From: Clostridia bacterium
GTDB lineage: Bacteria; Bacillota; Clostridia; UMGS1883
Assembly (NCBI GenBank): GCA_021202495.1
Contig: JAJQCX010000053.1
Location: 1 to 35,407 of the forward strand
Reading direction: 5' to 3'
Length of the DNA stretch: 35,407 nt
The notes beneath the pieces are model-generated. The model did no database searches. It was not told the origin of the DNA and saw nothing but the letters and a program-made list of their open reading frames with translations. The position numbers and the translations under genes are program-made. This document shows positions 1,482 to 35,407 of this stretch, in pieces (positions within the stretch are counted from its first letter, which is position 1; each line of letters starts with the position of its first letter).

Positions 1482-2861
1482 ATGAGCAATAATATAACCG
1501 AAACACAAAATCCGCTGGGTGTGAAGCCGCTTGGGTGGCTCATTCCGCATTACGCAATTCCGGCGACGGTCGCGCTTGTTGTAAATGCGCTCTATAACAT
1601 TGTCGATCAGATTTTCATAGGCCAAAGCGTCGGCTATTTGGGAAACGCGGCGACGAACGTAATCAATCCTCTTATGGTGGGCATGATTGCCGTTGCGACG
1701 CTTTGGGGCGACGGGTGCGCGTCCTACGCAAGCCTGCAGCAGGGAAAGGGCAACCGCGAAAGCGCGTCAATCGGCGTGTGCAACACGTTTGCCGCGTCGT
1801 TCGTCTTGGGGCTCATCGTGATGGTGCTTTCATGGATTTTCATGGAGCCGCTGTGCAACCTTTTCGGCGCTTCGGAAAATTCGCTGCCCTATGCGATGGA
1901 ATACGGCTATGTTATCGCGCTCGGTTTTCCGCTCATGGCGATTTTAAACCCCGTTACGGCATGCATCCGCGTTGACGGCGGCGCGACCTACGGCATGGTG
2001 GGGCTGCTTGTCGCCTGCTGCTCGAATGTCATTCTCGACGCCGTCTTTTGCCTGGGGCTTGGCTGGGGCGTGCGCGGCGCGGCAATAGCGACAATACTCG
2101 GTGAATTGATAAACGTTTTGTGGGTTGTGGCGTATATCCCGCGCTTTAAAACGGTGTCCATCCGCAAAAAATATTTCCGTCCGAACCTTTCCGTCATTAA
2201 AAGCATAGCCGCGCTCGGCGTTTCGAGCTTTATTTTGCAGATGTCGTTTGCGCTCATTTCCGCAGTTGCAAACAACATGCTCGCAATTTACGGCGCGCTT
2301 TCAAAATACGGCGCGGACATAACTGTCGCGGCGTTCGGAATTACGATAAAAATTTATCAGGTCGCCCTCAACGTTGTGCAGGGCTTTGTCACGGGCTCAC
2401 AGCCGATAATGGGCTACAACTACGGCGCGGGCAAATACGAGCGCACAAAAGCCACGTTTAAAATTTCCGTGATCGCGGGAACGATATTCTTGATTATCGC
2501 GACGATTGTCTTTCAGCTTTGCCCGATGTCGCTCGTCTCCCTTTTCGGCTCGGAAACGGAACTTTACAACGAATTTGCGGTGATGTGCCTGAGGATTTTC
2601 CTCATGTGCTGCATAGCAAACGGACTGCAGACCTGCACAAGCGTTTTCTTTCAGTCGGTGGGAAAGCCTGTGCAGGCGTCGGTCAATACTTTTGTAAAGC
2701 AAATTCTTCTTGTTCCGCTCGGCATGGTTATAATGGCGCACATAATCGGCGTGAAGGGCGTTCTTTGGGCGGGCGCCGTCAGCGACACTATTGCTTTTGT
2801 GATATCTATTGTTCTTTTGAAACTTAACTGGAAGGATATATTCGTAACAGCTCAGCCATGA
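1482..2861 (+). CDS. MATE family efflux transporter
   Basis: 459 aa, MATE-like NALYNIVDQIFIGQSVGYLGNAATNV...; SD ggagg upstream. Confidence 0.9.
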   Translation: MSNNITETQNPLGVKPLGWLIPHYAIPATVALVVNALYNIVDQIFIGQSVGYLGNAATNVINPLMVGMIAVATLWGDGCASYASLQQGKGNRESASIGVCNTFAASFVLGLIVMVLSWIFMEPLCNLFGASENSLPYAMEYGYVIALGFPLMAILNPVTACIRVDGGATYGMVGLLVACCSNVILDAVFCLGLGWGVRGAAIATILGELINVLWVVAYIPRFKTVSIRKKYFRPNLSVIKSIAALGVSSFILQMSFALISAVANNMLAIYGALSKYGADITVAAFGITIKIYQVALNVVQGFVTGSQPIMGYNYGAGKYERTKATFKISVIAGTIFLIIATIVFQLCPMSLVSLFGSETELYNEFAVMCLRIFLMCCIANGLQTCTSVFFQSVGKPVQASVNTFVKQILLVPLGMVIMAHIIGVKGVLWAGAVSDTIAFVISIVLLKLNWKDIFVTAQP

Positions 2862-2862
2862 A

Positions 2863-2984
2863 AAGTGACGTCACACGTCGAAAAGAGCGCCGAGAAAACG
2901 CTCTGCGTTGTCTCGGCGGAGGGGGTGCGGGGGAGGAAATGCCCCCGCGTAAAATCGTCAAAAACCAAAGCGTCTTTGGTTTTT
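2863..2984. repeat. Copy 1 of a ~120-bp three-hairpin intergenic element ending in a terminator-like stem
   Basis: Strong match to 35286-35407; stems CGCCGAGA/TCTCGGCG, GCGGGGG/CCCCCGC, AAAAACCAAAG/CTTTGGTTTTT. Confidence 0.8.
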
Positions 2985-3102
2985 GACTCCTCTATCGCGG
3001 TAGCCCGCCGTAGGCGGGCGTAAGCGTAAGCGCGCGATGTGAAAAGAGGTTTACGGGGAAAAGCGGAGCTTGTCCCCGTGTTCAGCCGCGAAGCGGCTGA
3101 AC
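2985..3102. repeat. Cluster of further palindromes (three more hairpins)
   Basis: GCCCGCC gta GGCGGGC inside ATCGCG/CGCGAT; ACGGGG..AAGC gga GCTT..CCCCGT; GTTCAGCCGC gaa GCGGCTGAAC (3080-3102). Confidence 0.7.
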
Positions 3103-3149
3103 TGTAACATATATTTCCGTCAGAATCAACGAAGGGATAAGGGGGAGGC

Positions 3150-3207: not shown

Positions 3208-3867
3208 ATGATTAAAAGTAAGGCTCCGGGGCGCAGGTTTGTTATTTATATTATCGGTCTTTTCATAATGACGATGGGCATAGCGCTCTCGGTCAAGTCA
3301 AACTTGGGAGTGCCGCCGGTGAGCTCGATTCCGTATACGATTACATGCGTATTCGGGATTGAAATGGGCAACGCGACAATTTTGTTCCATGCTTTTCTTG
3401 TGCTTTTGCAGATAATACTGCTGCGCAAAAATTTTAAAGTGATAAATCTGCTGCAAATCGTCGTGGGCGTTGTTTTCGGCAAATTTACGACGTTGTGCAA
3501 CTATTTGGCGGGAATGCTGCCGGCTGTCGACAACATGGTAATTCGGATAATATTTGTGCTGATAAGCACGATTCTTGTCGCGGTGGGGATTTTTTTCTAT
3601 TTGCCCGCAAACATTATGCCGCTTGCCGGAGAGGGCGCAATGCAGGCGGTGTCGCAGATAACGAAAATTGAATTTTCAAAGGTGAAAATAGGCTTTGATG
3701 TGACCATGGTTGTAATTTCGCTGACGGTCTGCCTGATCGCCCTTCACACCATGGGAAGCGTCGGAGCGGGAACGATTGTGTCGGCGTTTTTGGTGGGCTT
3801 TAATTTGGGTGCGATAAATAAGAAGTTCGGAGCATGGCGGGATAAATTGCTGTGCGTAAATGCGTAA
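3208..3867 (+). CDS. YczE/YitT-like multi-pass membrane protein
   Basis: FVIYIIGLFIMTMGIALSVKSNLGVPPVSSIPYTI... resembles the YczE/YyaS family. Confidence 0.65.
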   Translation: MIKSKAPGRRFVIYIIGLFIMTMGIALSVKSNLGVPPVSSIPYTITCVFGIEMGNATILFHAFLVLLQIILLRKNFKVINLLQIVVGVVFGKFTTLCNYLAGMLPAVDNMVIRIIFVLISTILVAVGIFFYLPANIMPLAGEGAMQAVSQITKIEFSKVKIGFDVTMVVISLTVCLIALHTMGSVGAGTIVSAFLVGFNLGAINKKFGAWRDKLLCVNA

Positions 3868-31367: not shown

Positions 31368-32153
31368 TTATTCTCCGAATCCGATATATGTTCCAAATCC
31401 GAGCATATACAGAGCTAATTCAAAAGAACCTTCCTTGCTTTCGGCAATTTTTTTCAATTCGTCAATAACCGTATCGTTTGGTGTTGCCACCGAATCTGAA
31501 GATTGAAGCACATCCTCTATAACAGCGGGCAAAACCATACACATTCGGTAAAATGCATCAGGCTGTCCGGTAACCATTTTATAGAATTCATCCATACTGA
31601 CGCGGCGAATTCTGCGGTGCTTTTGTTTTACTCCGTCAACCGTTACTTGCCATGTTATGTTTTGAGACCTTTTGGCTATTGCTTCTACTAAGCAGCAGGC
31701 GCAATCATCATCTGACAACAATTGCCCTTGCATTTTAATGTATGTTTTTCCGCTTGACGCGGAATTCATCGTATTATGCTTATTTTTCATTTCAACATAC
31801 ACAGTTTTTACTTTGCCACATTCGGGTATTTCTATTCCGCTTTCCTGTGTAAAAATCACATCCCAGCCCGCCGACGGTACGGTACAGCCGGGCATATATT
31901 GAAAAATGCGCTGATGAAAATACCCTATGTCATTATTGTTTGACTTGTCTCGCTGCCTGAAAATTTCGTTTTTTATAATTTCGTCCCAAGTGTAACAATA
32001 AACGGTCTTGTCAAAAATAAGTTTAATGGGGTCAACGATGTTGCTGTTAAATTTCGATAAGTCGTAGGGAGCGAGTTTTTCGCCATAGTGTTGTATGGTC
32101 ATTTGAACATGATGGCGAAAATCCTGTTCGGATATAAAGCTTAAATTCCACAA
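31368..32153 (-). CDS. Type II restriction endonuclease, Eco47II family
   Basis: MWNLSFISEQDFRHHVQ...SNIVDPIKLIFDKTVYCYTWDEIIKNEIFRQRDKSNNNDIGYFHQRIFQY...YVEMKNKHNTMNSASSGKTYIKMQ. Confidence 0.85.
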   Translation of the reverse strand: MWNLSFISEQDFRHHVQMTIQHYGEKLAPYDLSKFNSNIVDPIKLIFDKTVYCYTWDEIIKNEIFRQRDKSNNNDIGYFHQRIFQYMPGCTVPSAGWDVIFTQESGIEIPECGKVKTVYVEMKNKHNTMNSASSGKTYIKMQGQLLSDDDCACCLVEAIAKRSQNITWQVTVDGVKQKHRRIRRVSMDEFYKMVTGQPDAFYRMCMVLPAVIEDVLQSSDSVATPNDTVIDELKKIAESKEGSFELALYMLGFGTYIGFGE

Positions 32154-33205
32154 TTCAATCCATCCAATCCTTTTTTTATTTCAAGAGCAATATCATATGC
32201 CAAATTAACCGGCACAGCGTTTCCGACTTGTTTATATTGACTGCCAACACTTCCGCAGAAAGTCCATTCGTCGGGGAAAGACTGGATGCGCGCATTTTCC
32301 CGCACGGTGAACGGACGGGGTTCTAACGGATGACACCTTTCGGTTTGCTTTTGTGTAGGTGAGGTCAAAACCGCTAAAGACGGTTCGTCCATACTCATTC
32401 TGCGTAAAATGCCGGTTCGTCCGCCTCCCATATTCCAACAGCTTTTCATATATGCTTTGGCGATATTCTCCGGAATGTCGCGCCAATAGCCGCCCGGAGG
32501 TACAAGCGCAAAAATGTCACGCTTATATTTGGAATACTGCACGCCCAAGCTATCCGGAACATCTTGCAAAACATCGCGCAAAATGGGCTTGTATTCGTGA
32601 GGCTTTGGAAATTCAATTTTAATTTTATCGGTTAAATCACTGCGAATGCCTATTGTAATAAGCCTCTCACGTTTTTGTGCATTTCCATAATCCCATGCGT
32701 TCAGAACCTTTTTCTGAATTGTATATCCGGCATTTCTAAAAACATTTGTTATTGTGGCATAAGTTTTTCCACCGTTATGAGTTAATAATCCGCGCACATT
32801 TTCAAACAGAAAAGTTTTAGGCTTTAATTTTTCCAAAAAAACAGCATAATGATAGAACAACGTTCCTCTCGTATCCTCTAATCCCAGCCGCTTTCCGGCA
32901 TATGAGAACGCTTGACACGGCGCACCACCGGAGAGCATATCAAGTTGTCCGACTTCAAGATTGAAATATTCGGGCAAGTCCAAAGGCGAGATGTTCGCTA
33001 TATCGTCACAAATAACATTCCACTCAGGGCGGTTTAATTTCAAAGTATCTGCGGCATCCTTATCCAATTCTATTAAAGCAAGTGTGTTAAAGCCGGATTT
33101 TTCAATGCCGAGAGCCAGTCCTCCCGCACCTGCGAATAATTCAATAGTGGTGTAATCACGCTTGACGGGTGCAAGCGGTGTGTTTGAGCATAACTGCTTT
33201 TCCAT
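32141..33205 (-). CDS. DNA (cytosine-5-)-methyltransferase
   Basis: TIELFAGAGGLALGIEKSGF, GGAPCQAFSYAGKRLG, FLFENVRGLL, QKRERLITIGIR, GNAVPVNLA. Confidence 0.93.
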   Translation of the reverse strand: MEKQLCSNTPLAPVKRDYTTIELFAGAGGLALGIEKSGFNTLALIELDKDAADTLKLNRPEWNVICDDIANISPLDLPEYFNLEVGQLDMLSGGAPCQAFSYAGKRLGLEDTRGTLFYHYAVFLEKLKPKTFLFENVRGLLTHNGGKTYATITNVFRNAGYTIQKKVLNAWDYGNAQKRERLITIGIRSDLTDKIKIEFPKPHEYKPILRDVLQDVPDSLGVQYSKYKRDIFALVPPGGYWRDIPENIAKAYMKSCWNMGGGRTGILRRMSMDEPSLAVLTSPTQKQTERCHPLEPRPFTVRENARIQSFPDEWTFCGSVGSQYKQVGNAVPVNLAYDIALEIKKGLDGLNCGI

Positions 33206-33300: not shown

Positions 33301-35265
33301 TCAGCTCACATCAATCATTTCAAGGTAGCTTTTGCCGAACTTGGCTATGTGCTCTTTTCTGCCTTGTAAATTGTCGCCTAAAAGCAAATCAAACGTATCG
33401 CTCGTTTTTTGCGCGTCCTCGGGAGTTACCAAAATGAGGCGGCGGGTTTCGGGGTTCATGGTCGTCTGCCACATCATTTCGGGCTGGTTTTCGCCCAAGC
33501 CCTTGGAGCGCTGAATGTTTATCTTTTTGCCGTCCAGCTTTTGCAGAATGTCCGCCTTTTCTTTGTCGCTGTAGGCAAAATATGTGTCGTCGCCGCAGGT
33601 TATTTCAAAAAGCGGGGATTCGGCGATATAGACCTTCTCCTTTTCGATAAGCGTCGGCATGAGGCGGTAAATCATCGTGAGAATGAGCGTTCTTATCTGA
33701 AAGCCGTCGACGTCGGCATCGGTGCAGATGATGACCTTTGACCAGCGCAGCATGTCAAGGTCGAACGAATTGAGCTCGCGGTTGTGCTTTGATTTTACCT
33801 CGATTCCGCAGCCCAAGACCTTAACGAGGTCTGTTATGATGTCGCTTTTGAAGATTTTTTCAAAATCCGCCTTGAGGCAGTTTAAAATTTTGCCGCGAAC
33901 GGGCATGATTGCCTGAAATTCGCTGTCGCGGCCGAGCTTGCAGGCGCCGAGAGCGGAGTCACCCTCAACGATGTATACCTCGCGCTTGCTGACGTCCTTG
34001 CTGCGGCAGTCGACAAATTTTTGTATTCTGTTTGTGATGTCAATCGAGCCTGTCAGCTTCTTTTTGAGGTTGGCGCGTGTTTTTTCCGCGGTTTCGCGGC
34101 TGCGCTTGTTCAAAAGAATTTGGTCGGCAATTCTGAGCGCATCGGCGCGGTTTTCGATGAAATATACCTCCAGAACGTGGCGGAGGAAATCGTTCGTAGC
34201 CTCTTGAATAAACTTGTTTGTAATGCTTTTTTTCGTCTGATTTTCGTAGCTGACAACGGTTGAGAAGCAGTTTGTCACAAGAATGAGACTATCGGTGATG
34301 TCGTCAAACGTAATCTTCGATTCGTTTTTGTTGTATTTGCCTTCGTTTTTGATGAAATTGTCAATCGCGAACGTAAATGCGCTTTTCGCCGCCTTTGCGG
34401 GAGCGCCGCCATGCTCGAGAAAGCTTGAATTGTGGTAATATTCAATCACGTTCACGTCGTTTGAAAAGCAGAACGCCGCCGAAAGCTTGACCTTGTAGTC
34501 CTTCATGTCCTCGCGGTCGCGGCCTACCCTCTCGCCCTCGGAAAAATGAACGTCGGTGAAGCGCTTGTCGCCGCAGAGCTCCGCAACGTAGTCGACAATT
34601 CCGTTTTCGTATTTATATTCAAATTTTTCGCCCTTGTAGTCAAGCTTGAACAAAATGCCCGAATTTACGACCGCCTGACGCTTTAGCGTCTCCTGAAAAT
34701 AGGAAAGGGGAATGTCAATGTCGGTAAAAACAGCCGTGTCGGGACGCCATTTTATCGTCGTGCCGGTGAAGCGGTAACGCTTTTGCTCTTTGTAGAGCCC
34801 GCCCACGTTTTCGCCCTTTTCAAAATAAAGCTTGTGTTCATAGCCGTCGCGGTTTATAACGACGTTCATGTATTCCGCAGCAAACTGTGTGGCGCAAAGA
34901 CCCAAGCCGTTTAGACCGAGCGAATAGAGATAGCTTTCGTTGTCGCCCTTTTCATATTTGCCGCCCGCGTAAAGCTCGCAAAAGACGAGCTCCCAGTTGT
35001 AGCGCTGTTCCTTTTCGTTCCAGCCGACGGGAATGCCGCGTCCGTAGTCCTTGACCTCGACGCTGTTGTCGGCAAAATACGAGATTTCGATTATGGAGCC
35101 GAAGCCCTCCTTTGCCTCGTCGATTGAGTTTGAGACTATTTCAAAAACGCTCTGTTCGCACCCGTCGATGCCGTCCGAGCCGAAAATGACGCCGGGACGC
35201 TTGCGCACCTTGTCGGGACCCTTGAGAGCGACGATGCTTTGATCGTCATATACTTTTTTTGCCAT
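33301..35265 (-). CDS. Divergent type IIA topoisomerase ATPase/TOPRIM subunit (GyrB/ParE-like)
   Basis: GPDKVRKRPGVIFG, NSIDEA, VKDYGRGIPVG, EGDSALGACK, TDADVDGFQIRTLILTMIYR, RSKGLGENQPE. Confidence 0.85.
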   Translation of the reverse strand: MAKKVYDDQSIVALKGPDKVRKRPGVIFGSDGIDGCEQSVFEIVSNSIDEAKEGFGSIIEISYFADNSVEVKDYGRGIPVGWNEKEQRYNWELVFCELYAGGKYEKGDNESYLYSLGLNGLGLCATQFAAEYMNVVINRDGYEHKLYFEKGENVGGLYKEQKRYRFTGTTIKWRPDTAVFTDIDIPLSYFQETLKRQAVVNSGILFKLDYKGEKFEYKYENGIVDYVAELCGDKRFTDVHFSEGERVGRDREDMKDYKVKLSAAFCFSNDVNVIEYYHNSSFLEHGGAPAKAAKSAFTFAIDNFIKNEGKYNKNESKITFDDITDSLILVTNCFSTVVSYENQTKKSITNKFIQEATNDFLRHVLEVYFIENRADALRIADQILLNKRSRETAEKTRANLKKKLTGSIDITNRIQKFVDCRSKDVSKREVYIVEGDSALGACKLGRDSEFQAIMPVRGKILNCLKADFEKIFKSDIITDLVKVLGCGIEVKSKHNRELNSFDLDMLRWSKVIICTDADVDGFQIRTLILTMIYRLMPTLIEKEKVYIAESPLFEITCGDDTYFAYSDKEKADILQKLDGKKINIQRSKGLGENQPEMMWQTTMNPETRRLILVTPEDAQKTSDTFDLLLGDNLQGRKEHIAKFGKSYLEMIDVS

Positions 35266-35285
35266 GATTTGATGTTCCTTTCGAT

Positions 35286-35407
35286 GAAATGACATCGCAC
35301 ACTGAAAAGAGCGCAGAGAAAACGCTTGCGTTGTCTCTGCGGAGGGGGAGCGGGGGAGGAAATGCCCCCGCATAAAATCGTCAAAAACCAAAGCGTCTTT
35401 GGTTTTT
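35286..35407. repeat. Copy 2 of the ~120-bp three-hairpin element (cut by window end)
   Basis: tgacatcgcacactgaaaagagcgcagagaaaacgcttgcgttgtctctgcggaggggg...aaaaaccaaagcgtctttggttttt aligned to 2863-2984. Confidence 0.8.

Follow-up and report, generated by a model that had tools for sequence, protein, structure and literature searches.

The window, that is, the whole stretch of 35,407 nucleotides analysed here, corresponds to contig C51 of a genome assembly of 2.42 Mb in 217 contigs (G000). Near its left end, a 265-bp non-coding element lies between a MATE gene and a gene for a DUF6198 membrane protein (positions 3208 to 3867, + strand), close homologues of which occur in several Lachnospiraceae-labelled MAGs. 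At its right end, a partial copy of the element lies antisense, upstream of a gyrB-type gene that is directly followed downstream by a C-5 cytosine DNA methylase gene (32141 to 33205, - strand). The complete copy consists of six hairpins between inverted ends (GTAACAGCTCAGC...GCTGAACTGTAAC), outside which there is a near-perfect 8-bp putative target duplication (Table 1).

An earlier note, made from the letters of the window alone, had described a three-hairpin repeat present twice, after the MATE gene and before a topoisomerase gene. Both copies were indeed found there, aligning almost end to end with 91% identity, and the C-G to A-T swap reported in the first stem was confirmed (CGCCGAGA/TCTCGGCG versus CGCAGAGA/TCTCTGCG). 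The three-hairpin repeat is, however, only the left half of the element. The palindrome with which it was said to end, AAAAACCAAAG-CGT-CTTTGGTTTTT, exists, but the boundary at position 2984 was wrong, since it was set by the second copy, which stops where contig C51 does (position 35407). Similarly, the first copy does adjoin the MATE gene but does not merely follow it: the left end of the element supplies the last codons of the ORF and its stop codon (2859 to 2861).

Table 1. Parts of the element in the window
Feature	Position	Strand	Remarks
Complete element copy	2844..3108	+	Homology starts and stops here in an alignment of ~20 copies; 7/8 flanking bases duplicated
Left putative target duplication, ATATATTC	2836..2843	.	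Flank comparison; perfect 8 bp in C122, C194 and the C176 solo copy
Right putative target duplication, ATATATTT	3109..3116	.	Flank comparison
Left inverted end, GTAACAGCTCAGC	2844..2856	+	Final codons of the MATE ORF lie in it
Right inverted end, GTTACAGTTCAGC on the - strand, within hairpin 6	3096..3108	-	Exact match to the end consensus GTTACAGTTCAGC
Hairpin 1, CGCCGAGA-A-AACGC-TCT-GCGTT-G-TCTCGGCG	2888..2918	+	Stem with the swap reported earlier
Hairpin 2, GCGGGGG/CCCCCGC	2927..2948	+	Contains a ~285-bp second element in C149, C159, C87 and C86
Hairpin 3, GTCAAAAACCAAAG/CTTTGGTTTTTGAC	2957..2987	+	Varying pairs change on both sides
Stem P4, CCTCT-ATCGCG/CGCGAT-AGAGG, enclosing the hypervariable hairpin	2989..3049	+	Helices 2 and 3 of the pairing analysis
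Hypervariable hairpin P4a, CCCGCC-GTA-GGCGGG	3004..3018	+	Other near-perfect palindromes here in other copies
Conserved unpaired linker, CGTAAGCGTAAGCG	3019..3032	+	Matched exactly in two genera; no match with the reversed pattern as control
Hairpin 5, ACGGGGA-A-AAGC-GGA-GCTT-G-TCCCCGT	3053..3079	+	
Hairpin 6, GTTCAGCCGC-GAA-GCGGCTGAAC, overlapping the right inverted end	3080..3102	+	
Left half of the second copy, truncated where contig C51 ends	35284..35407	+	Antisense, upstream of the gyrB-type gene (33301-35265, - strand)

When the whole genome was searched with a 270-bp query (2843 to 3112), approximately 40 places were matched, with E values down to ∼1e-110, and roughly ten of them span the element end to end or nearly so. 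The earlier note had proposed such a count, and the outcome it feared, only two copies with pairing lost in any others, is clearly not what was found. Many other contigs start or stop within a copy, as expected of a repeat that breaks the assembly. No ORF of at least 80 amino acids is present inside the 265 bp, and the element is thus short, non-coding and repeated in many places, as MITEs are. Compared with shuffled sequences, its folding gave z-scores of -7.8 (RNA, + strand), -10.0 (RNA, - strand) and -11.6 (DNA). With some 40 further genomic places and folding scores of this strength, neither the repeat nor its fold is due to chance. No similar DNA was found in plasmids and phages, nor was the exact linker found in viral contigs.

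The copies sit between genes, commonly right at stop codons. Where the left neighbour is transcribed toward the element, 14 of 17 copies start within approximately 25 bp of the end of that gene. Position and orientation relative to genes nevertheless vary, and several copies, including the second one in the window, lie upstream of genes. A comparison with an empty site was attempted through orthologues of the 3208 to 3867 gene; the MATE neighbour was not conserved beside it in the relatives fetched, and no clean empty site was obtained.

In the genus of the window (g1), many copies start with GTTACAGTTCAGC and finish with its reverse complement, thus carrying the terminal inverted repeats of a MITE. 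For the flanks, the eight bases on either side of 12 two-ended copies were compared, two of these copies being 35-bp palindromes made up of hairpin 6 and the ends only (in C176 and C58). All eight bases matched in C122, C194 and the C176 palindrome, seven in the window copy and six in C58, while none of 132 cross-pairings of flanks exceeded six. A duplication of fixed length (8 bp), as in MITEs, was therefore perfect in three of the 12 copies and matched at 7/8 in one more. We read these repeats as the target duplications that transposition of the DDE type would leave. Five copies (C148, C85, C147, C110 and C164) have no ends of the GTTACAGTTCAGC type, and three of them (C148, C85 and C164) have neither end type; the copy in C86 is flanked by an exact 23-bp repeat instead of 8 bp.

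The suggestion of a mobile palindromic repeat in the earlier note was accordingly right in kind, the element being dispersed and MITE-like. That a RAYT (Y1 transposase) moves the element as a REP/BIME-like repeat is, for its part, extremely improbable. In REP sequences, GTAG precedes the hairpin, and GGTAG does occur at the foot of P4a in g1 and g2; the copies are also palindromic, extragenic and numerous. However, GTAG is not kept in g5, the units measure 170 to 267 bp and contain several hairpins rather than a single imperfect palindrome of 20 to 40 nt, and the inverted ends and the target duplications suggest a DDE enzyme, with the relatives described below pointing to an IS1182-family transposase.

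An associated transposase was sought, as had been proposed, with models of the IS1182, IS256 and IS30 families. Those of IS1182 and IS256 matched nothing in this genome, whose assembly is fragmented at repeats, and the IS30 model detected one fragment only; a transposase with GTTACAGTTCAGC ends was not among the results. This fragment (C124:9692-10190, L062) starts with GTTACAGTTCAGCC and is bordered by imperfect direct repeats of ∼33 bp; being single and without a second end, it was dropped as a candidate partner. An IS256 partner, considered from a contig-end sequence in C90, was also dropped, as the model found nothing in the genome; that contig-end sequence belongs to a different multi-copy insertion sequence (IS), inserted in an element copy. 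Multi-copy ISs are poorly represented in the fragmented assembly, where one other IS is present only as the ends of approximately eight contigs. The sequence TATGTCCCGCATTTTGTGTAAACTCC, with which approximately eight contigs of this genome end (C90, C217, C128, C121, C142, C41, C113 and C32), represents an insertion sequence of several copies that the binned assembly lacks.

Several copies carry, inside hairpin 2, a second element of ∼285 bp with the ends TAAGGGTAGAGGGGAACGTCCCC and TCCCTCTACCCTAA (C149:2745-3027, C159:19297-19580, C87 and C86:25679-25961; L077 to L079 and L059), which in C86 has the opposite orientation. Hairpin 5 is the site of a similar insert in C136 and C40, and C4 retains a short remnant. 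This insert may be either a nested mobile element or an inverting palindrome.

Part of the element extends well beyond the genus. Sister genera contain multiple copies of the core, which consists of hairpin 3 and the hairpin framed by GGTAG...CGTAAGCGTAAGCG. Among 28 genomes of the order, the pattern GGTAG-N(10-40)-CGTAAGCGTAAGCG was present in 7, belonging only to genera g1 and g2, and always enclosed a palindrome, usually a perfect one; the reversed control pattern gave no match. A slightly shorter pattern added a single match, lacking a palindrome, in 391 genomes of the class. A covariance model, also proposed in the earlier note, was built from the g1 and g2 copies and detected the core 31 times in this genome and as many as 65 times in one g2 genome; in g5, the matches were weak but recurred. 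The parts of the g5 copies follow one another in the same order, with GGCGTGTACC as the loop of hairpin 3, stem P4 and the linker GCGCGAGCGAAAGC. A second model, made from these copies, found the core in 20 of the 391 class genomes, including five other families of Clostridia (f3, f20, f31, f36 and f67), mostly with several copies per genome (a single weak match in f42 was left out of the family count). Hairpin 3 of the relatives reads ATxAAATCCC..GGCGTGTACC.., and the motifs kept across families are the unpaired ones, namely, the GGCGTGTACC loop and the RAGCGNAAGC linker, while the stems turn over.

Two further observations were made among these copies. In three species, copies lie upstream of the same gene, whose protein starts with MLKIGVDV (L094/L245 in G002, L237 in G004 and L256 in G008); they have different hairpin arms, two of the three species show a duplication of ∼41 to 46 bp of the gene start, and the copies are likely to be orthologous insertions. 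In a g2 subfamily (L118, L130, L141 and L219 to L227), the linker is followed by GCCAGCGTGACGCTGGACCC... and a long insert in place of the usual sequence, several copies ending with GAAACGGCACGTTTCCGG; this constitutes another module swap.

Many copies in the relatives start with CAGACTRYTGACAAA or CAGACTGTMGAWAAA and are flanked by direct repeats of 12 to 46 bp, usually a whole terminator stem-loop. In g2, direct repeats with a score of at least 15 flank approximately 26 of the 96 copies, at fixed distances from the core, whereas the maximum among 389 control cross-pairs was 14 (L125 and L130 were left out of this count as contig-end artefacts). Most of these repeats are entire terminator-like stem-loops, such as CCGCCCCTTTTGGGGCGG. 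A-rich sequence tends to precede the left repeat copy and a T-run typically follows the right copy only; thus, the duplication split the original terminator. Between the duplicated stem-loops, the g2 element starts with CAGACTRYTGACAAACCC and ends with GCGCTGACCTTTGTCAGCGCTCTG. Some g2 copies without these ends are flanked by duplications of 20 to 46 bp of ordinary sequence, and in L232 and L237 the duplication covers the start codon and the region upstream of it. In other families, the copies of four genomes (G254, G060, G183 and G289) are flanked by duplicated stem-loops of 15 to 29 bp and have ends such as CAGACTGTAGATAAA or GGACTGTCGAAAAA. Two of the G254 copies are identical at 185 of 187 aligned positions outside an 80-bp deletion and lie in different duplicated terminators, which indicates recent mobility.

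A search with the IS1182 model rendered one intact element, of 1,576 bp, in a sister genus of the same bacterial family (G013). Its protein belongs to DDE_Tnp_1/DUF772 (NF033551, 416 bits), its ends are CAGACTGTCGAAGAA/CAGACTGTCGAAAAA, and a perfect 29-bp duplicated terminator lies at its flanks. The ends of this IS1182 element, CAGACTGTCGAA, are the same as those of the relatives in g2, G254, G060, G183 and G289 (CAGACTGTCGAARAA versus CAGACTGTAGATAAA, GGACTGTCGAAAAA and CAGACTACTGACAAA), and a palindromic target with duplication of the stem-loop was seen for both. Because they share the ends and the stem-loop duplication with the G013 element, the relatives are best read as putative IS1182-type MITEs. 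By contrast, the window element has the ends GTAACAGCTCAGC, an 8-bp duplication and no duplicated terminator; its ends and its duplication do not fit, and for that reason it was not filed under IS1182.

The earlier note had called the repeat terminator-like in both directions, which was not borne out: the T-run lies inside the stem, and a simple terminator scan did not flag it. A bidirectional terminator or insulator module kept at gene ends would account for intergenic copies so often right at stop codons, for the A/T-rich, symmetrical arms of hairpin 3 and perhaps for the insertion of the relatives into terminators. We regard it as quite improbable, given that no T-run follows the stems, that no terminator was called at hairpin 3 of the window copy and that several copies are found upstream of genes. 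Moreover, since the relatives come with a duplicated terminator of the host, the element itself presumably need not terminate transcription.

Base pairing was analysed in 27 copies, in which 97.4% of the cells pair and 19 of the 31 pairs show two-sided changes; with the partner shifted by one column, pairing fell to 56% or less. Overall, 126 two-sided changes keep pairing, and helices 1, 3 and 4 contain 121 two-sided cells versus 1 one-sided. Among 22 variants of hairpin 3 of g2 there were 282 Watson-Crick pairs and neither G-T nor A-C, and among 56 variants of g2 P4a there were 720, with 8 G-T and 4 A-C. The joint core alignment of g1, g2 and g5 (A2) was left out of the pair counts, since stem P4 stands in different registers in it. 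In stems that were otherwise equal, loops occurred either way round: GAA/TTC, GCA/TGC and AAA/TTT in hairpin 6 (for which only the loop sequences were used in the sister genus), GCGTC/GACGC in hairpin 3, ACA/TGT in P4a, and also CTTT/AAAG.

Homogenisation of arms together with inversion of the spacer is the known footprint of template switching during replication (PMC8604942, PMC8794818). Judging from these patterns, template switching in DNA would be the more likely cause of the matched changes in the arms. The compensatory change reported in the earlier note is real and hinted at a functional structure, but changes in more than 100 copies are almost always two-sided and loops are inverted; a functional RNA is not needed to explain them because DNA template switching accounts for both. 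This serves as a warning for RNA discovery: even with two-sided changes at 19 of 31 pairs, the pattern is the one template switching predicts, and covariation alone is thus no proof of RNA function here.

The core could still be a structured element conserved for a role as RNA, either as a small RNA, one of the suggestions of the earlier note, or as a 3′-UTR or leader element, and only hitch-hike on transposons, a reading we consider unlikely. One pair in g5 is mostly a fixed G-U (7 of 10), hairpin 5 shows some G-U changes, and overall G-T is slightly more frequent than A-C; this hints at a degree of tolerance at the RNA level. Together with a loop and a linker that stay unpaired and conserved between families while the stems turn over, the G-U features leave room for a possible RNA role. 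The many copies starting close to an upstream stop codon would, in addition, be cotranscribed with that gene. On the other hand, one-sided or wobble changes are almost absent from the main helices, position and orientation relative to genes vary, and the conserved loop of hairpin 3 has been lost in most g1 copies. Nor was any Rfam family matched in the window at the gathering score or E-value thresholds, the best below-threshold E value being 1.1.

Taking these data together, it is highly probable that the element belongs to a widespread family of clostridial MITEs (non-autonomous DNA transposons) whose hairpin core is conserved, and that it is mobilised and kept paired as follows. A DDE transposase would act in trans on the element ends. 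In the relatives, an IS1182-type enzyme would recognise the cruciform or hairpin at a terminator and join the element at the feet of the stem-loop; the stem-loop would then be copied to both sides, and both neighbouring genes would keep a terminator. In the genus of the window, the core would have been taken over by other ends (GTTACAGTTCAGC, with 8-bp duplications), and the transposase serving these ends would be absent from the assembly. The arms would be kept complementary mainly by replication template switching, one arm being rewritten from the other and loops being inverted, and selection for the hairpins may contribute as a second force.

Several observations count against this account: the searches for a transposase with GTTACAGTTCAGC ends in this genome yielded none, some copies have neither end type or carry a 23-bp duplication, the G-U features hint at tolerance at the RNA level, and the GGCGTGTACC loop and the linker are not needed by a plain MITE. 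It is possible, if doubtful, that the hairpin core with its fixed loop and RAGCGNAAGC linker has moved from one transposon type and bacterial family to another owing to an activity of its own, for example, as an RNA or as cruciform DNA read by the transposase or the host, while its stems are continually rewritten by template switching. If so, it would be a natural case of textbook RNA covariation made largely by a DNA mutation process.

As a MITE, the element resembles others such as QMITE2 of Coxiella, which are shorter than 300 bp and intergenic and have inverted ends, a stable stem-loop and short target duplications, of 7 to 9 bp in QMITE2 (PMC10969869). It differs in having a core structure conserved between bacterial families with the stems replaced, and ends that differ between genera. 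The mobile element family is real, well supported and of a known kind (MITE), its unusual features being the preservation of the core across families, the exchange of ends between genera and the duplication of terminators. Likewise, the pneumococcal BOX, RUP and SPRITE repeats are short, intergenic, strongly structured and presumed parasitic, and insert into one another (PMC3049150, PMC10969869); compared by description, they are reported to be almost absent outside a few streptococci, whereas the window family spans several families of Clostridia. As a family of mobile elements, it seems not to have been described before; single genomes of its own bacterial family contain up to 65 matches to the core.

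With the IS1182 family (IS1272 and the G013 element), the relatives share the outer ends CAGACTGT.GA.AAA and the location in stem-loops duplicated on both sides. Unlike IS1182 elements, the window family has no transposase gene and contains a conserved hairpin core, and in the genus of the window its ends are different and its duplications measure 8 bp. The targets of IS1272 are inverted repeats of 21 to 38 bp, which it is reported to replace (PMC5678879), whereas the relatives duplicate the stem-loop, an outcome that the published model draws, at both IS ends, as an alternative (6b) (PMC5678879). The relatives would thus illustrate in nature the outcome with a duplicated stem-loop, which was proposed alongside replacement of the stem-loop for transposition in this family, having probably spread across Clostridia via terminators, with the whole terminator copied to both sides and the neighbouring genes left intact.
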